DNA of 64,000 nucleotides. Origin: Owenia fusiformis. Lineage: Eukaryota > Annelida > Polychaeta > Sabellida > Oweniidae. A program made the translations under genes and the position numbers. The number at the start of each line of letters is the position of its first letter. Positions within the stretch are counted from its first letter, which is position 1. The notes under the pieces are model-generated. The model saw only the letters and a list, made by a program, of their open reading frames with translations, did not search any database and was not told where the DNA came from. The stretch spans positions 23,771,759 through 23,835,758 of the forward strand of contig CAIIXF020000009.1 in assembly GCA_903813345.2 (NCBI GenBank), read 5' to 3'. This document shows, piece by piece, positions 1-63,099 of the stretch.

Positions 1-170
1 GCGAATTATTGGGAGAATTTCATGAAAACTAAGCAAATGAACCGTCGTTTGGCCTAATTCTTAGCAATAAAACGAACGTCTCCAGTCTATTTCCTTTGCT
101 GAATTGGCTGAAGTGCACAAGCATGCGCTTGCATGCGAATTTTCGTATTTAGACACTTTTTCGAAACAAA

Positions 171-341
171 ATGCATTTCCAGGCCATGCATCAAATGCAT
201 GGTACTATCAGGCGTTTGGACAATAATGACAGTCTCATGCATGGTCGTGCATTGCTAGCTGATCGGCAGGATGTGCTTCTTGCTGAGCTTATGGCACTAA
301 ACAGGGCGTTGCAGGCGCAGTCGTCGCCTTCGGAAGCTTAA
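171..341 (+). other. 56-codon ORF in the U1 spacer
   Basis: An ATG at 171 opens a 56-residue frame ending TAA at 339-341, on the strand opposite U1 and present in each complete unit. The C-terminal half (VLLAELMALNRALQAQ) is leucine/alanine-rich and could form an amphipathic helix. I recognise no family, and nothing shows translation. It could be a captured fragment of a transposon-encoded protein or a chance frame. Confidence 0.15.
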
Positions 342-384
342 GAGTGGAGATGGAAGAGCTGGGAGTGATTTTTGTTTGTTAGAT

Positions 385-548
385 CAGGGGAGAGCGCGAA
401 CGCAGTCCCCCACTATCATAAATTACGCATCCGAGTAACCCACATTTGGGGTTATCGCAGCGGTCAGCCCATCCGATGTGCAATGGACAGGCCTCGCACT
501 GGAGAAACCTCCATCTTGACCAAGGTGTTCTCTATGCCAGGTAAGTAT
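385..548 (-). ncRNA. U1 spliceosomal snRNA, copy 1
   Basis: This is a 164-nt U1 snRNA, the same length as the human RNA; RNA position n is window base 549-n. It begins ATACTTACCTGGC, the invariant sequence that pairs with 5' splice sites. Stem-loop I: nt 17-21 and 23-27 pair with 38-47 around a 10-nt loop (28-37). Loop II holds ATTGCAC (65-71), the U1A binding sequence. Stem III (95-100 with 108-113) differs from human in two pairs, both compensated. An Sm-like site AATTTATGA lies at 125-133. Stem IV has a GC-rich stem with a TTCG tetraloop (149-152), and the RNA ends CCCCTG. Loop I and the Sm site depart from the usual consensus. A 3'-box-like A-rich tract follows the end (about 368-382), but I am unsure of it. 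Confidence 0.95.
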
Positions 549-788
549 GCCAATGTTCGGCAGTTGTACAAACCCCTATCAGCATCATTTTGAGATGCGC
601 AAGTGTTTCTGAAATGCGAGTTGCAAGAACAGAGAACTGCTACCATCATTACGAATTTATCTGAATTGGTGACCTCTCTAAGATGCACACTGTCCCCGTA
701 TGAAATGTTTTGAGATTATCAAATGAAAAAGACAGTGTTTTAGACCATCGGCGAATTATTGGGAGAATTTCATGAAAACTAAGCAAAT
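549..788 (-). promoter_or_regulatory. Presumed U1 promoter region (copy 1)
   Basis: Metazoan U1 genes use an external promoter with a proximal element near -55 and often a distal element near -220. This is the matching stretch upstream of the first copy; the -55 position is near base 603. No TATA box sits close to the start, as expected for polymerase II snRNA genes. At 781-788 the bases AAGCAAAT match 7 of 8 positions of the octamer ATGCAAAT, about 233 bp upstream. I cannot name the proximal element because it is lineage-specific. The assignment rests on position, not on a recognised motif. Confidence 0.4.
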
Positions 789-1134
789 GAACCGTCGTTT
801 GGCCTAATTCTTAGCAATAAAACGAACGTCTCCAGTCTATTTCCTTTGCTGAATTGGCTGAAGTGCACAAGCATGCGCTTGCATGCGAATTTTCGTATTT
901 AGACACTTTTTCGAAACAAAATGCATTTCCAGGCCATGCATCAAATGCATGGTACTATCAGGCGTTTGGACAATAATGACAGTCTCATGCATGGTCGTGC
1001 ATTGCTAGCTGATCGGCAGGATGTGCTTCTTGCTGAGCTTATGGCACTAAACAGGGCGTTGCAGGCGCAGTCGTCGCCTTCGGAAGCTTAAGAGTGGAGA
1101 TGGAAGAGCTGGGAGTGATTTTTGTTTGTTAGAT

Positions 1135-1298
1135 CAGGGGAGAGCGCGAACGCAGTCCCCCACTATCATAAATTACGCATCCGAGTAACCCACATTTGGG
1201 GTTATCGCAGCGGTCAGCCCATCCGATGTGCAATGGACAGGCCTCGCACTGGAGAAACCTCCATCTTGACCAAGGTGTTCTCTATGCCAGGTAAGTAT
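1135..1298 (-). ncRNA. U1 spliceosomal snRNA, copy 2
   Basis: Copy in the second 750-bp unit, with the same 164-nt sequence as 385-548 as far as I can see by eye. It keeps the full 5' splice-site pairing end and the 3' stem-loop IV. Confidence 0.94.
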
Positions 1299-1884
1299 GC
1301 CAATGTTCGGCAGTTGTACAAACCCCTATCAGCATCATTTTGAGATGCGCAAGTGTTTCTGAAATGCGAGTTGCAAGAACAGAGAACTGCTACCATCATT
1401 ACGAATTTATCTGAATTGGTGACCTCTCTAAGATGCACACTGTCCCCGTATGAAATGTTTTGAGATTATCAAATGAAAAAGACAGTGTTTTAGACCATCG
1501 GCGAATTATTGGGAGAATTTCATGAAAACTAAGCAAATGAACCGTCGTTTGGCCTAATTCTTAGCAATAAAACGAACGTCTCCAGTCTATTTCCTTTGCT
1601 GAATTGGCTGAAGTGCACAAGCATGCGCTTGCATGCGAATTTTCGTATTTAGACACTTTTTCGAAACAAAATGCATTTCCAGGCCATGCATCAAATGCAT
1701 GGTACTATCAGGCGTTTGGACAATAATGACAGTCTCATGCATGGTCGTGCATTGCTAGCTGATCGGCAGGATGTGCTTCTTGCTGAGCTTATGGCACTAA
1801 ACAGGGCGTTGCAGGCGCAGTCGTCGCCTTCGGAAGCTTAAGAGTGGAGATGGAAGAGCTGGGAGTGATTTTTGTTTGTTAGAT

Positions 1885-2048
1885 CAGGGGAGAGCGCGAA
1901 CGCAGTCCCCCACTATCATAAATTACGCATCCGAGTAACCCACATTTGGGGTTATCGCAGCGGTCAGCCCATCCGATGTGCAATGGACAGGCCTCGCACT
2001 GGAGAAACCTCCATCTTGACCAAGGTGTTCTCTATGCCAGGTAAGTAT
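1885..2048 (-). ncRNA. U1 spliceosomal snRNA, copy 3
   Basis: Third unit of the array. The sequence and the spacing to flanking unit features are unchanged from the first copy. Confidence 0.94.
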
Positions 2049-2634
2049 GCCAATGTTCGGCAGTTGTACAAACCCCTATCAGCATCATTTTGAGATGCGC
2101 AAGTGTTTCTGAAATGCGAGTTGCAAGAACAGAGAACTGCTACCATCATTACGAATTTATCTGAATTGGTGACCTCTCTAAGATGCACACTGTCCCCGTA
2201 TGAAATGTTTTGAGATTATCAAATGAAAAAGACAGTGTTTTAGACCATCGGCGAATTATTGGGAGAATTTCATGAAAACTAAGCAAATGAACCGTCGTTT
2301 GGCCTAATTCTTAGCAATAAAACGAACGTCTCCAGTCTATTTCCTTTGCTGAATTGGCTGAAGTGCACAAGCATGCGCTTGCATGCGAATTTTCGTATTT
2401 AGACACTTTTTCGAAACAAAATGCATTTCCAGGCCATGCATCAAATGCATGGTACTATCAGGCGTTTGGACAATAATGACAGTCTCATGCATGGTCGTGC
2501 ATTGCTAGCTGATCGGCAGGATGTGCTTCTTGCTGAGCTTATGGCACTAAACAGGGCGTTGCAGGCGCAGTCGTCGCCTTCGGAAGCTTAAGAGTGGAGA
2601 TGGAAGAGCTGGGAGTGATTTTTGTTTGTTAGAT

Positions 2635-2798
2635 CAGGGGAGAGCGCGAACGCAGTCCCCCACTATCATAAATTACGCATCCGAGTAACCCACATTTGGG
2701 GTTATCGCAGCGGTCAGCCCATCCGATGTGCAATGGACAGGCCTCGCACTGGAGAAACCTCCATCTTGACCAAGGTGTTCTCTATGCCAGGTAAGTAT
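2635..2798 (-). ncRNA. U1 spliceosomal snRNA, copy 4
   Basis: Fourth unit of the array, identical in sequence to copy 1 by inspection. Confidence 0.94.
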
Positions 2799-3384
2799 GC
2801 CAATGTTCGGCAGTTGTACAAACCCCTATCAGCATCATTTTGAGATGCGCAAGTGTTTCTGAAATGCGAGTTGCAAGAACAGAGAACTGCTACCATCATT
2901 ACGAATTTATCTGAATTGGTGACCTCTCTAAGATGCACACTGTCCCCGTATGAAATGTTTTGAGATTATCAAATGAAAAAGACAGTGTTTTAGACCATCG
3001 GCGAATTATTGGGAGAATTTCATGAAAACTAAGCAAATGAACCGTCGTTTGGCCTAATTCTTAGCAATAAAACGAACGTCTCCAGTCTATTTCCTTTGCT
3101 GAATTGGCTGAAGTGCACAAGCATGCGCTTGCATGCGAATTTTCGTATTTAGACACTTTTTCGAAACAAAATGCATTTCCAGGCCATGCATCAAATGCAT
3201 GGTACTATCAGGCGTTTGGACAATAATGACAGTCTCATGCATGGTCGTGCATTGCTAGCTGATCGGCAGGATGTGCTTCTTGCTGAGCTTATGGCACTAA
3301 ACAGGGCGTTGCAGGCGCAGTCGTCGCCTTCGGAAGCTTAAGAGTGGAGATGGAAGAGCTGGGAGTGATTTTTGTTTGTTAGAT

Positions 3385-3548
3385 CAGGGGAGAGCGCGAA
3401 CGCAGTCCCCCACTATCATAAATTACGCATCCGAGTAACCCACATTTGGGGTTATCGCAGCGGTCAGCCCATCCGATGTGCAATGGACAGGCCTCGCACT
3501 GGAGAAACCTCCATCTTGACCAAGGTGTTCTCTATGCCAGGTAAGTAT
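3385..3548 (-). ncRNA. U1 spliceosomal snRNA, copy 5
   Basis: Fifth unit of the array, identical in sequence to copy 1 by inspection. Confidence 0.94.
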
Positions 3549-4134
3549 GCCAATGTTCGGCAGTTGTACAAACCCCTATCAGCATCATTTTGAGATGCGC
3601 AAGTGTTTCTGAAATGCGAGTTGCAAGAACAGAGAACTGCTACCATCATTACGAATTTATCTGAATTGGTGACCTCTCTAAGATGCACACTGTCCCCGTA
3701 TGAAATGTTTTGAGATTATCAAATGAAAAAGACAGTGTTTTAGACCATCGGCGAATTATTGGGAGAATTTCATGAAAACTAAGCAAATGAACCGTCGTTT
3801 GGCCTAATTCTTAGCAATAAAACGAACGTCTCCAGTCTATTTCCTTTGCTGAATTGGCTGAAGTGCACAAGCATGCGCTTGCATGCGAATTTTCGTATTT
3901 AGACACTTTTTCGAAACAAAATGCATTTCCAGGCCATGCATCAAATGCATGGTACTATCAGGCGTTTGGACAATAATGACAGTCTCATGCATGGTCGTGC
4001 ATTGCTAGCTGATCGGCAGGATGTGCTTCTTGCTGAGCTTATGGCACTAAACAGGGCGTTGCAGGCGCAGTCGTCGCCTTCGGAAGCTTAAGAGTGGAGA
4101 TGGAAGAGCTGGGAGTGATTTTTGTTTGTTAGAT

Positions 4135-4298
4135 CAGGGGAGAGCGCGAACGCAGTCCCCCACTATCATAAATTACGCATCCGAGTAACCCACATTTGGG
4201 GTTATCGCAGCGGTCAGCCCATCCGATGTGCAATGGACAGGCCTCGCACTGGAGAAACCTCCATCTTGACCAAGGTGTTCTCTATGCCAGGTAAGTAT
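4135..4298 (-). ncRNA. U1 spliceosomal snRNA, copy 6
   Basis: Sixth unit of the array, identical in sequence to copy 1 by inspection. Confidence 0.94.
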
Positions 4299-4884
4299 GC
4301 CAATGTTCGGCAGTTGTACAAACCCCTATCAGCATCATTTTGAGATGCGCAAGTGTTTCTGAAATGCGAGTTGCAAGAACAGAGAACTGCTACCATCATT
4401 ACGAATTTATCTGAATTGGTGACCTCTCTAAGATGCACACTGTCCCCGTATGAAATGTTTTGAGATTATCAAATGAAAAAGACAGTGTTTTAGACCATCG
4501 GCGAATTATTGGGAGAATTTCATGAAAACTAAGCAAATGAACCGTCGTTTGGCCTAATTCTTAGCAATAAAACGAACGTCTCCAGTCTATTTCCTTTGCT
4601 GAATTGGCTGAAGTGCACAAGCATGCGCTTGCATGCGAATTTTCGTATTTAGACACTTTTTCGAAACAAAATGCATTTCCAGGCCATGCATCAAATGCAT
4701 GGTACTATCAGGCGTTTGGACAATAATGACAGTCTCATGCATGGTCGTGCATTGCTAGCTGATCGGCAGGATGTGCTTCTTGCTGAGCTTATGGCACTAA
4801 ACAGGGCGTTGCAGGCGCAGTCGTCGCCTTCGGAAGCTTAAGAGTGGAGATGGAAGAGCTGGGAGTGATTTTTGTTTGTTAGAT

Positions 4885-5048
4885 CAGGGGAGAGCGCGAA
4901 CGCAGTCCCCCACTATCATAAATTACGCATCCGAGTAACCCACATTTGGGGTTATCGCAGCGGTCAGCCCATCCGATGTGCAATGGACAGGCCTCGCACT
5001 GGAGAAACCTCCATCTTGACCAAGGTGTTCTCTATGCCAGGTAAGTAT
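4885..5048 (-). ncRNA. U1 spliceosomal snRNA, copy 7
   Basis: Seventh unit of the array, identical in sequence to copy 1 by inspection. Confidence 0.94.
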
Positions 5049-5634
5049 GCCAATGTTCGGCAGTTGTACAAACCCCTATCAGCATCATTTTGAGATGCGC
5101 AAGTGTTTCTGAAATGCGAGTTGCAAGAACAGAGAACTGCTACCATCATTACGAATTTATCTGAATTGGTGACCTCTCTAAGATGCACACTGTCCCCGTA
5201 TGAAATGTTTTGAGATTATCAAATGAAAAAGACAGTGTTTTAGACCATCGGCGAATTATTGGGAGAATTTCATGAAAACTAAGCAAATGAACCGTCGTTT
5301 GGCCTAATTCTTAGCAATAAAACGAACGTCTCCAGTCTATTTCCTTTGCTGAATTGGCTGAAGTGCACAAGCATGCGCTTGCATGCGAATTTTCGTATTT
5401 AGACACTTTTTCGAAACAAAATGCATTTCCAGGCCATGCATCAAATGCATGGTACTATCAGGCGTTTGGACAATAATGACAGTCTCATGCATGGTCGTGC
5501 ATTGCTAGCTGATCGGCAGGATGTGCTTCTTGCTGAGCTTATGGCACTAAACAGGGCGTTGCAGGCGCAGTCGTCGCCTTCGGAAGCTTAAGAGTGGAGA
5601 TGGAAGAGCTGGGAGTGATTTTTGTTTGTTAGAT

Positions 5635-5798
5635 CAGGGGAGAGCGCGAACGCAGTCCCCCACTATCATAAATTACGCATCCGAGTAACCCACATTTGGG
5701 GTTATCGCAGCGGTCAGCCCATCCGATGTGCAATGGACAGGCCTCGCACTGGAGAAACCTCCATCTTGACCAAGGTGTTCTCTATGCCAGGTAAGTAT
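5635..5798 (-). ncRNA. U1 spliceosomal snRNA, copy 8
   Basis: Eighth unit of the array, identical in sequence to copy 1 by inspection. Confidence 0.94.
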
Positions 5799-6384
5799 GC
5801 CAATGTTCGGCAGTTGTACAAACCCCTATCAGCATCATTTTGAGATGCGCAAGTGTTTCTGAAATGCGAGTTGCAAGAACAGAGAACTGCTACCATCATT
5901 ACGAATTTATCTGAATTGGTGACCTCTCTAAGATGCACACTGTCCCCGTATGAAATGTTTTGAGATTATCAAATGAAAAAGACAGTGTTTTAGACCATCG
6001 GCGAATTATTGGGAGAATTTCATGAAAACTAAGCAAATGAACCGTCGTTTGGCCTAATTCTTAGCAATAAAACGAACGTCTCCAGTCTATTTCCTTTGCT
6101 GAATTGGCTGAAGTGCACAAGCATGCGCTTGCATGCGAATTTTCGTATTTAGACACTTTTTCGAAACAAAATGCATTTCCAGGCCATGCATCAAATGCAT
6201 GGTACTATCAGGCGTTTGGACAATAATGACAGTCTCATGCATGGTCGTGCATTGCTAGCTGATCGGCAGGATGTGCTTCTTGCTGAGCTTATGGCACTAA
6301 ACAGGGCGTTGCAGGCGCAGTCGTCGCCTTCGGAAGCTTAAGAGTGGAGATGGAAGAGCTGGGAGTGATTTTTGTTTGTTAGAT

Positions 6385-6548
6385 CAGGGGAGAGCGCGAA
6401 CGCAGTCCCCCACTATCATAAATTACGCATCCGAGTAACCCACATTTGGGGTTATCGCAGCGGTCAGCCCATCCGATGTGCAATGGACAGGCCTCGCACT
6501 GGAGAAACCTCCATCTTGACCAAGGTGTTCTCTATGCCAGGTAAGTAT
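6385..6548 (-). ncRNA. U1 spliceosomal snRNA, copy 9 (promoter-side end of array)
   Basis: This is the last complete U1 gene. Transcription runs right to left, so its upstream side is 6549-6750 plus the truncated tenth unit (6751-7065). It therefore keeps about 515 bp of unit-type upstream sequence before the array breaks. The tenth unit stops before it would reach its own U1 gene. Confidence 0.94.
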
Positions 6549-7065
6549 GCCAATGTTCGGCAGTTGTACAAACCCCTATCAGCATCATTTTGAGATGCGC
6601 AAGTGTTTCTGAAATGCGAGTTGCAAGAACAGAGAACTGCTACCATCATTACGAATTTATCTGAATTGGTGACCTCTCTAAGATGCACACTGTCCCCGTA
6701 TGAAATGTTTTGAGATTATCAAATGAAAAAGACAGTGTTTTAGACCATCGGCGAATTATTGGGAGAATTTCATGAAAACTAAGCAAATGAACCGTCGTTT
6801 GGCCTAATTCTTAGCAATAAAACGAACGTCTCCAGTCTATTTCCTTTGCTGAATTGGCTGAAGTGCACAAGCATGCGCTTGCATGCGAATTTTCGTATTT
6901 AGACACTTTTTCGAAACAAAATGCATTTCCAGGCCATGCATCAAATGCATGGTACTATCAGGCGTTTGGACAATAATGACAGTCTCATGCATGGTCGTGC
7001 ATTGCTAGCTGATCGGCAGGATGTGCTTCTTGCTGAGCTTATGGCACTAAACAGGGCGTTGCAGG

Positions 7066-7120
7066 CACAGTTTGGACAATAATGACAGTCTCATGCATTT
7101 GCTGAAGTGCACAACCATGC
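7066..7120. repeat. Scrambled array edge
   Basis: After the truncated tenth unit the sequence jumps to shuffled pieces of the same unit. Bases 7071-7098 match unit positions 215-242, and 7097-7120 match unit positions 96-125 with a short deletion. Beyond 7120 no unit similarity is evident. This looks like a recombination or replication-slippage boundary. Confidence 0.75.
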
Positions 7121-12794: not shown

Positions 12795-13535
12795 TTATGA
12801 CAGTATACAGTCATTTTTAGTCGGATCGCGACTGCTCTTCACTTTAGGTTTACTCGTTCTCCTTATAAGGCTCCTGCTCTTGCTCATCATCTTGCTCTCG
12901 CCATTCGGGGCTTTATCAGAGTTTTTTCTATGTGTATGTCCACTCAGTCTACGAATGAGGGAGTTAGATTCGGCATCGTTTAATATTGTCTCCGGAACTG
13001 GAATAATATTCATCATTTTAGCCTGGTCCAATAGTTTCTTAAAGATCTCCTTTATGCCATAGTTTTCCTTGGCTGAAATTTCAAACAGAACATTTTCCAG
13101 CTGTTCCTTAACAGCCCACTCAACAACATCGTCTTTGTTCACCTGTCTGGCATCGTCCTCTAGGTCAGACTTGTTGCCTACAACAACACATGGGATACTT
13201 TCATAGTTATCTCTTTGTTCTTTGATTTGCTCCCGTATTTGTTTTATTTCCTCTAGGGAACCAGCATTGTCCACTGCGTATACTAAGAGAAACGCATGCG
13301 CCGTTGACACTGATAATCTTCTCATGGCGGGAAATGTCAAATTCCCAGCTGTGTCTAAAATATCAACTTTTAAGGTTTGTCCTTTGATGTCAAACTCTCG
13401 GCAGTAAAGATCCTCGACCGTTTCCTTGTACGTGTCCGAGTATTCAGAGTTCACAAAGCGTGTTATAATTGATGTCTTACCCACTCTACCAGAACCAAGA
13501 ATAACTAGTCTGTGGCGCGTATTTTCGTCCGCCAT
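12795..13535 (-). CDS. Ras-family small GTPase, Ras-dva/RASD-like, intronless
   Basis: A 246-residue GTP-binding switch protein, probably acting at membranes after lipidation. All five G motifs are present: P-loop GSGRVGKT (14-21), switch I Thr39 in ETVEDLY, DTAGN (61-65), NKSD (121-124) and SAK (154-156). It ends in a CAAX box CILS (243-246), which predicts farnesylation, preceded by a basic serine-rich tail (about 190-242). FPAMRRLS after DTAGN, and ETVEDL in switch I, resemble the Ras-dva and Dexras/Rhes groups rather than classical Ras. The residue equivalent to Ras Gln61 is Asn65, which suggests altered hydrolysis. I start at the ATG at 13535 (GCAATGG context). The longer in-frame reading from 13586 has no upstream ATG. 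The whole domain lies in one exon. Confidence 0.92.
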   Translation of the reverse strand: MADENTRHRLVILGSGRVGKTSIITRFVNSEYSDTYKETVEDLYCREFDIKGQTLKVDILDTAGNLTFPAMRRLSVSTAHAFLLVYAVDNAGSLEEIKQIREQIKEQRDNYESIPCVVVGNKSDLEDDARQVNKDDVVEWAVKEQLENVLFEISAKENYGIKEIFKKLLDQAKMMNIIPVPETILNDAESNSLIRRLSGHTHRKNSDKAPNGESKMMSKSRSLIRRTSKPKVKSSRDPTKNDCILS

Positions 13536-13573
13536 TGCCGAAATGCGTTGAAAACTGAGTTCAATTATTGGTG

Positions 13574-13588
13574 TTAGCACATCCACAT
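13574..13588 (-). promoter_or_regulatory. Short upstream ORF before the Ras-like gene
   Basis: AAAATGTGGATGTGCTAA encodes a four-codon upstream frame (Met-Trp-Met-Cys-stop) that ends 38 bp before the main ATG. Just upstream, TTCAATACAG at about 13592-13601 resembles a 3' splice site, so the 5' leader may contain an intron. If transcribed, the upstream frame could lower translation of the GTPase. This is inferred from sequence only. Confidence 0.35.
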
Positions 13589-13607
13589 TTTCTGTATTGA
13601 ATAACTA

Positions 13608-61004: not shown

Positions 61005-63099
61005 GTCACCACCAAAAGTGGTGACATATTGTTATGGTCTCCGTTTTTTTGCGACGGCGTCCGGCGGTTGGTGGTTGGTGGTTGGCGTCCGGCGGTTGGC
61101 GTCTGTAACAATTTCTTACAACTTCCTATAACTTAACAAATACTGTTTAGACTGACTTCAATTTTTTTCTAAATCATCTACATGTTCTCAGAAGTTCAAA
61201 TCTGACTTTAGATTTGACATTTGACCTTCAATGACCTTCTCAAGGTCAAAAAGGTCTTTTTTCAACTTGCTTCACATTGACTAAATTTTTTTTCAAAATC
61301 ATCTACATGTTCTCAGAAATTCAAATCTGACTTTAGATTTGACATTTGACCTTCAAATCTGACTTTAGATTTGACATTTGACCTTCAATGACCTTCTCAA
61401 GGTCAAAAAAGGTCAAAAAGGTCTGTTTTCAACTTGCTTCAAATTGACTAAATTTTTTTTTCAAAATCATCTACGTGTTCTCAGAAATTCAAATCTGACT
61501 TAAGATTTGACATTTGACCTTCAATGACCTTCTTAAGGTCAAAAAAGGTCAAAAAGGTCTGTTTTCAACTTGCTTCAAATTGACTAAAAAAAATTTTCAA
61601 AATCATCTACGTGTTCTCAGAAATTCAAATCTGACTTTAGATTTGACTTAAGATTTGACATTTGACCTTCAATGACCTTCTCAAAGTCAAAAAAGGTCAA
61701 AAAGGTCTTTTTTCAACTTGCTTCAAATTGACTAAATTTTTTTTTCAAAATCATCTACATGTTCTCAGAAATTCAAATCTGACTTTAGATTTGACATTTG
61801 ACCTTCAATGACCTTCTCAAGGTCAAAAAAGGTAAAAAAGGTCTGTTTTCAACTTGCTTCAAATTGACTAAATTTTTTTTTCAAAATCATCTACGTGTTC
61901 TCAGAAATTCAAATCTGACTTAAGATTTGACTTAAGATTTGACATTTGACCTTCAATGACCTTCTCAAGGTCAAAAAAGGTCAAAAAGGTCTGTTTTCAA
62001 CTTGCTTCAAATTGACTAATTTTTTTTTTCAAAATCATCTACATGTTCTCAGAAATTCAAATCTGACTTTAGATTTGACATTTGACCTTTAATGACCTTC
62101 TCAAGGTCAAAAAAGGTCAAAAAGGTCTGTTTTCAACTTGCTTCAAATTGACTAAAAAAAATTTCAAAATCATCTACGTGTTCTCAGAAATTCAAATCTG
62201 ACTTTAGATTTGACTTTTGACCTTCAATGACCTTCTCAAAGTCAAAAAAGGTCAAAAAGGTCTTTTTTCAACTTGCTTCAAATTGACTAATTTTTTTTTT
62301 CAAAATCATCTACATGTTCTCAGAAATTCAAATCTGACTTTAGATTTGACATTTGACCTTTAATGACCTTCTCAAGGTCAAAAAAGGTCAAAAAGGTCTG
62401 TTTTCAACTTGCTTCAAATTGACTAAAAACAAATTTCAAAATCATCTACGTGTTCTCAGAAATTCAAATCTGACTTTAGATTTGACTTAAGATTTGACAT
62501 TTGACCTTCAATGACCTTCTCAAGGTCAAAAAAGGTCAAAAAGGTCTTTTTTCAACTTGCTTCAAATTGACTAAATTTTTTTTTCAAAATCATCTACATG
62601 TTCTCAGAAATTCAAATCTGACTTTAGATTTGACATTTGACCTACAATGACCTTCTCAATGTCAAAAAAGGTCAAAAAGGTATTTTTTCATCTTGCTTCA
62701 AATTGACTAAATTTTTTTTCAAAATCATCTACATGTTCTCAGAAATTCAAATATGACTAGATTTGACATTTGACCTTCAATGACCTTCTCAAGGTCAAAA
62801 AAGGTCAAAAAGGTCTTTTTTCAACTTGCTTCAAATTGACTAATTTTTTTTTTCAAAATCATCTACATGTTCTCAGAAATTCAAATCTGACTTTAGATTT
62901 GACATTTGACCTTTAATGACCTTCTCAAGGTCAAAAAGGTCAAAAAGATCTGTTTTCAACTTGCTTCAAATTGACCAAATTTTTTTTTCAAAATCATCTA
63001 CACTTTTCAGAAGTTCTAATTTGACTTTACAAGTTCTCAGAAATTCAAATCTGACTTAGTTTGAACTCATAATATTGTGAGCAACTAGGTGGTGACATT
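61005..63099. mobile_element. GGTGGTGAC-ended element filled with a minisatellite
   Basis: TGTCACCACC at the left (which itself forms the hairpin GTCACCAC-CAAAA-GTGGTGAC, 61005-61025) pairs with GGTGGTGACA at about 63088-63097. A GTCCGGCGGTTGG-rich stretch follows the left end. Almost all the rest is a tandem repeat (61160-63060). Similar-looking ends occur on other short elements here (33539-33933). No protein is encoded. Confidence 0.65.
61160..63060. repeat. Tandem minisatellite, about 14 units of 125-168 bp
   Basis: The marker phrase AAAATCATCTACATG/GTG recurs about 14 times. A unit reads, in pieces, CAACTTGCTTCAAATTGACT, ATCATCTACATGTTCTCAG, CAAATCTGACTTTAGATTTG, CATTTGACCTTCAATGACCT and CAAGGTCAAAAAAGGTCAAA. 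Unit length varies through internal duplication of the GATTTGACTTAAGATTTGAC part and T-run length. Each unit carries several AGGTCA/TGACCT hexamers. Confidence 0.9.

Follow-up and report, generated by a model that had tools for sequence, protein, structure and literature searches.

The 64,000-nucleotide stretch of Owenia fusiformis DNA analyzed here (the window; contig C9, G000:C9:23771759-23835758) begins inside a tandem array of genes for the small nuclear RNA (snRNA) U1. The whole array contains 47 U1 copies, including nine in the window and 38 to the left of it (RF00003 scan of the segments L001-L004), all located on the minus strand in a head-to-tail arrangement. Based on its sequence, this is very probably a working U1 array, which is kept near-identical by concerted evolution and supplies a U1 isoform distinct from that of the dispersed U1 genes, at least eight of which are present elsewhere in the genome. 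It is one of several snRNA arrays in this genome, together with those of U2 and of U4 and U5. Tandem U1 arrays are an already known kind of locus; the new elements are this member, the split into two isoforms and the combined U4+U5 unit.

The U1 array

Analysis of the window using cmscan at the gathering threshold revealed nine matches to the U1 family RF00003, all on the minus strand and each with a score of 151.2 bits (gathering score 69.5) over model positions 1-166 of 166 without truncation. In all nine units the match spans the whole RNA including the four stem-loops. Across the 64 kb window no other Rfam family attained its gathering score, leaving U1 as the sole Rfam match of each unit. 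The 164-nt sequence opens with ATACTTACCTGGC, and the 5' end AUACUUACCUG, which pairs with 5' splice sites, is carried by every unit in the window. The nine units agree with one another at 750 of 750 positions, and this identity at a period of 750 stops at position 7066. A previous sequence-only reading of this DNA had placed minus-strand U1 genes at 385-548 and at multiples of 750 beyond, and its coordinates, the 164-nt length and the 5' end were all correct. Its count of nine 750-bp units describes the window accurately but not the size of the array, because the window begins inside it.

The features of the array in the window are as follows (window coordinates):
1-7066, unstranded: right-hand end of the tandem U1 array, made up of nine identical 750-bp units and a partial tenth unit of 316 bp
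385-548, minus strand: U1 snRNA gene of unit 1 (164 nt; RF00003, 151.2 bits, model 1-166)
1135-1298, minus strand: U1 snRNA gene of unit 2 (RF00003 match)
1885-2048, minus strand: U1 snRNA gene of unit 3 (RF00003 match)
2635-2798, minus strand: U1 snRNA gene of unit 4 (RF00003 match)
3385-3548, minus strand: U1 snRNA gene of unit 5 (RF00003 match)
4135-4298, minus strand: U1 snRNA gene of unit 6 (RF00003 match)
4885-5048, minus strand: U1 snRNA gene of unit 7 (RF00003 match)
5635-5798, minus strand: U1 snRNA gene of unit 8 (RF00003 match)
6385-6548, minus strand: U1 snRNA gene of unit 9 (RF00003 match)
512-521, minus strand: U1 positions 28-37, the loop of stem-loop I bound by human U1-70K, GGUCAAGAUG, repeated in the nine units
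577-615, minus strand: candidate block of the proximal promoter, spanning -67 to -29 relative to the U1 start and containing ACAC at -58 (603-606), in every unit
7070-7098, unstranded: 29-bp unit fragment (unit positions 214-242) just beyond the array, a scrambled edge

Only the right end of the array falls in the window, and the whole array is about five times as large. It occupies approximately 35.5 kb of C9 and extends leftward to about C9:23743275. A search with the 13-base U1 5' end also produced 47 copies, equal to the Rfam count. The 164-nt bodies are identical in 43 of the 47 copies, and 40 copies share one identical 300-bp upstream sequence. Neighboring copies are 749-751 bases apart outside the six leftmost ones and 746-751 bases apart among those six (the latter from printed coordinates); within the array, the steps of 750 are interspersed with a single step of 751 and two of 749. 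The four copies with non-identical bodies all belong to the six leftmost, and what sets them apart is single-base insertions or deletions, several of them in short one-base runs. A blast search with one unit showed that full units begin at L001:3276 (C9:23743275), and partial, scrambled unit pieces are present at L001:2255-2718, beyond a run of 522 N at L001:2719-3240. The copy number at this left edge is uncertain. The single-base insertions and deletions beside the N run may be sequencing errors, and we do not claim the diverged left-edge copies as pseudogenes.

The sequence-only reading had also warned that gene prediction would report two false proteins per unit. This applies to open reading frames (ORFs) of at least 60 amino acids under bacterial start rules, which give a 73-residue frame with a TTG start and a 74-residue frame with a GTG start in each unit, and not otherwise. 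None of the five ORFs of one unit had a Pfam match above the cut-off, and the unit ORFs were rejected as genes. A 56-residue ATG frame in the spacer (171-341, plus strand, and in each unit) showed a sub-threshold match to RVT_3 (E 0.12), which is probably a chance match and possibly a scrap of a mobile element.

Array and dispersed U1 isoforms

The genome search for U1 returned at least 42 matches. Among those listed, eight lie outside the array, with four on C1, two on C2, and single genes on C5 and C9 (6375845). A DNA search with the array unit, whose list of matches did not contain the array itself, recovered the same eight dispersed genes, matched over little beyond the U1 body, as well as one truncated relic of the unit (C9:19429898-19430039). 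The dispersed genes scored 154.3-158.8 bits against RF00003, compared to 151.2 bits for the array U1. The four genes on C1 and one U6 gene are located within about 21.5 kb (C1:49835563-49857036; L006, L007 and L022). The relic (in C9:19428500-19431500, L029) comprises approximately the first 70 nt of U1 with a well-kept upstream block, and the 3' part of U1 is lost.

Of the 164 positions of the array U1, 18 differ from the commonest dispersed form. These differences touch five of the 46 base pairs of the model, all of which still pair, three of them (15-119, 18-46, and 20-44) through double changes. In both sequences 44 of the 46 pairs are standard, and two are non-standard in all aligned U1 sequences. 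When the same 18 changes were placed at random, three or more double changes without a broken pair occurred in 3 of 100,000 trials. Three double changes with no broken pair favor a working isoform over a pseudogene satellite. Covariation was analyzed using an alignment of nine U1 genes (one array copy and the eight dispersed genes, representing five distinct sequences), in which six pairs were changed on both sides. This number was reached in none of 500 shuffles and fell to 0 or 1 with slid partners, which also reduced the share of paired cells from 95.7% to 55% or less. The shuffles ignore the relatedness of the U1 genes, whereas the slid controls retain it. The preserved pairing supports the view that both classes would be working U1 and not decaying copies.

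Sites for other U1 proteins are also recognizable in the array isoform. Its predicted Sm site AAUUUAUGA, which aligns to AAUUUgUGg of the model, is one base off the dispersed AAUUUCUGA. The U1A loop AUUGCAC of stem-loop II is present (AUUGCACAUC), and its sole change relative to the dispersed genes is A72 for U at loop position 8. In the human structure, the last three bases of this loop, position 8 among them, are poorly ordered (PMC4383343).

The ten-base loop of stem-loop I contains five of the 18 differences (positions 29, 33, 34, 35, and 36). Compared to the sequence GAUCA(A/C)GAAG, the array loop GGUCAAGAUG carries the changes A29G and A36U, and the commonest dispersed loop is GAUCAUCUAG. 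The array has G29 and U36 with A33-G34-A35; in the commonest dispersed form, these positions read A29 and A36, with U33-C34-U35. The dispersed genes have GAUCAUC at this loop followed by UAG, GAG or GCG, with the C9 and C2b genes departing further at U1 positions 35-36. In the human structure (PMC4383343), U1-70K buries this loop, which is closed by the pair of A29 and A36, and Arg191 and Lys138 hold C33 and G34 between them.

A single N-terminal exon of U1-70K was recovered in the genome search. A U1-70K RRM probe gave seven genome matches, two of which are exons of one U1-70K gene on C6, with the first short exon piece matching weakly. One of these exons showed 94% identity, and the other 61% over a stretch that overruns the exon and has two stops in the overrun. 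The other matches include one locus on C10 at 40% identity, which may be the U11/U12-35K relative, and four at 30-37%. Simple motif patterns detected no RRM within 10 kb of the N-terminal exon, and the RRM lies further off on C6. As read from the alignments, 10 of the 11 human contact residues are the same in the U1-70K exons read, and Lys138 is replaced by Thr. The loop sequences raise the idea that the two classes diverged in a complementary manner, the array at the A29-A36 partners and the dispersed genes at the C33-G34-A35 tip. They might then compete for the product of a single U1-70K gene, and the small nuclear ribonucleoproteins (snRNPs) containing array U1 might have altered U1-70K retention in early development. 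We consider this proposal speculative and rather doubtful. If it is true, altered retention of U1-70K would alter splice-site choice or 3'-end protection while array U1 is abundant.

Upstream regions, other snRNA genes and the rest of the window

The truncated relic retains 36 of the 39 bases of the candidate promoter block (-67 to -29), compared to 16 of the 28 bases that separate the block from the U1 start (a count made by eye from the alignment). ACAC is located at -58 in three of the arrays (U1, U2, and U4) and at -56 in that of U5. For these four array upstreams, the best shared 13-mer was reached by none of 150 shuffles and the best 8-mer by five of 150. Among seven further upstreams, four have ACACCA at -58 to -65 (both U12, two of three U6, and neither of the two dispersed U5). 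A profile test was performed with 20 upstreams, from which the C1c and C1d dispersed U1 genes and the other array copies were omitted as near-duplicates. Seven of them have ACACCA at -56 to -65 (the U2, U4, and U5 arrays, two U6, and both U12), and the held-out profile fits these seven seeds with p values of 0.0025 to 0.005, which are optimistic because the seeds were chosen for ACACCA. The other 13 upstreams fit it poorly, the best being U1_C1a (p 0.020) followed by the U1 array at -47 (p 0.034). A single promoter shared by all snRNA arrays including U1 was rejected, since the held-out profile misses the U1 array at -58. In sea urchins, snRNA promoter elements differ between genes.

The U2 array contains 12 copies with 605-bp steps (C2:10760910-10767757; L026). 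In total, the genome has 22 U2 matches, comprising the 12 on C2, three high-scoring ones on C5 and seven weaker ones. Base differences were observed between U2 array copies (three compared). U4 and U5 alternate on the same strand in one 1147-bp tandem unit, which is found on the short contigs C350, C386, and C514 (L028); their order was read in 1301 bases of C514. U4 produced at least 42 matches, and those listed are all on these three contigs, so that dispersed U4 genes may exist outside the matches listed. For U5, at least 46 matches were found, and among the matches listed there are also copies on C1, C6, C7, and C437. The genes of the U2 and U4+U5 arrays match their models end to end. U6 gave 12 matches, 11 of them over the cut-off. 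They form clusters on C9 and C10, and a single U6 gene lies on C1 close to the dispersed U1 genes. Four of the U6 matches (two strong, one weak, and one partial) are spaced by 745-746 bp at C9:42563-44865 (L023, L024), forming a small tandem cluster near the contig start. The genome search identified two copies of U12, both dispersed. Thus, amplification covers the RNAs of the major spliceosome and not U12 (U11, U4atac, and U6atac were not searched).

Elsewhere in the window, an intron-free open frame on the minus strand (12795-13604) encodes a Ras-family GTPase (Pfam Ras, 3.3e-41) with a C-terminal extension, whose best solved relatives are Di-Ras2 and Di-Ras1. A tandem satellite with reported periods of 136 bp and 284 bp and repeated TGACCTT motifs is located at 61162-63029. 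In the wider genome, the Pfam model Eryth_link_C, which is regarded as specific to annelids, has three matches above its cut-off of 27 bits on C6 (38.1, 30.7, and 28.4 bits, the last interrupted by one stop), pointing to a probable annelid. A COX1 search gave no match.

Function of the array and known systems

In the proposed model, each 750-bp unit would be one minus-strand gene consisting of an upstream promoter region, the 164-nt U1 body and a spacer. The array would be transcribed by RNA polymerase II with snRNA-type factors, and its RNA would enter U1 snRNPs. The many copies would meet a high demand for U1, most plausibly in oocytes and early embryos, and the dispersed genes would provide the steady somatic supply. 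We rate the chance of this developmental division, with the array serving the oocyte and early embryo and the dispersed genes the soma, as roughly even. A review (PMC4291461) covers the switching of U1 isoforms during development in fly, mouse, Xenopus, and sea urchin.

Several results weigh against the reading of the array as a working source of a distinct isoform. The U1-70K loop is unlike the human sequence in both isoforms, and one of the five covariation measures, the number of further pair types, was not unusual (126 of 500 shuffles were as high). The U1 array does not fit the held-out upstream profile at -58, and its best position is -47, with an empirical p of 0.034. Furthermore, three of the 12 U2 array copies and three dispersed U2 genes are only 0 to 3 bases apart, indicating that a distinct array isoform is no general feature of this genome.

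Alternatively, the U1 array may be a constitutive dosage array that provides U1 for all tissues, the sequence split being drift under separate homogenization. This is a serious possibility, to which we give somewhat less than an even chance. It is favored by the homogeneity of the array, and the preservation of structure by the array-dispersed differences is consistent with it; moreover, the nearly identical bodies of the array and dispersed U2 genes mean that arrays need not imply special isoforms. However, the ten-base U1-70K loop holds five of the 18 differences, against about one expected from an even spread, and stage-specific U1 isoforms have been reported in several animals (PMC4291461). 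Another alternative concerns the count of 47 copies, which might be a product of the assembly, with the true array being shorter or longer. The perfect identity over kilobases, the N run at the left edge with single-base insertions or deletions in four of the six adjoining copies, and the location of the U4+U5 units found on short contigs all point in this direction, but the spacing shifts of one base within the array (a single step of 751 and two of 749) suggest that the assembly followed real reads, and we consider this explanation unlikely. Finally, a U1-derived pseudogene repeat amplified as untranscribed satellite DNA is very improbable: a tandem, homogeneous array known from sequence alone, a truncated unit relic elsewhere and the lack of a clear match to the shared promoter motif would fit it, but the intact 5' end and stems, the compensatory changes relative to the dispersed genes and the companion U2 and U4+U5 arrays with end-to-end model matches speak against it.

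As a probable source of a distinct U1 isoform, the array has bases of its own that would let RNA data reveal the expression of each isoform, and the pair differing in the U1-70K loop lets one ask whether such isoforms behave differently. The analysis also charts a large part of the snRNA gene complement (U1, U2, and U4+U5 arrays versus dispersed copies) outside the usual model animals. Two parts deserve specialist attention: the divergence of the isoforms at the U1-70K loop, and the U4+U5 unit.

Papers listed on U1 snDNA clusters include many on fish and insects. An open literature search, which leaves most subscription journals outside and therefore gives a weak negative, found no title on tandem snRNA arrays in annelids or polychaetes or on a shared U4+U5 tandem unit. 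The linkage of U4 and U5 in one shared unit is not known from other animals.

Sea urchins have tandem embryonic U1 (and U2) genes, with head-to-tail one-gene U1 units and further dispersed U1 genes, and the Owenia genome is alike in both these respects. It differs in having U4 and U5 in one unit. The sea urchin U1 isoform switch is cited in PMC4291461. In Hydractinia, U1 shares a 5998-bp repeat with histone, 5S, U2, and tRNA genes (PMC5011920). Like the Owenia array, this is a tandemly repeated invertebrate unit containing U1, but the Owenia unit holds U1 as its only Rfam match. The sequence-only reading was right that tandem U1 clusters exist in some animals, as in Xenopus (PMC10361878), but the exceptional status it implied is unsupported, since such arrays are known and U2 and U4+U5 arrays are present in this genome too. 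Xenopus U1 and U2 each occupy their own tandem locus with tens of copies; X. tropicalis has about 20 U1 copies on chromosome 1, and two chromosomes of X. laevis carry 11 and about 35 (PMC10361878). Owenia resembles Xenopus in its separate tandem U1 and U2 loci with tens of copies, but it belongs to a different phylum, and two separated U1 sequence classes were measured within its genome.

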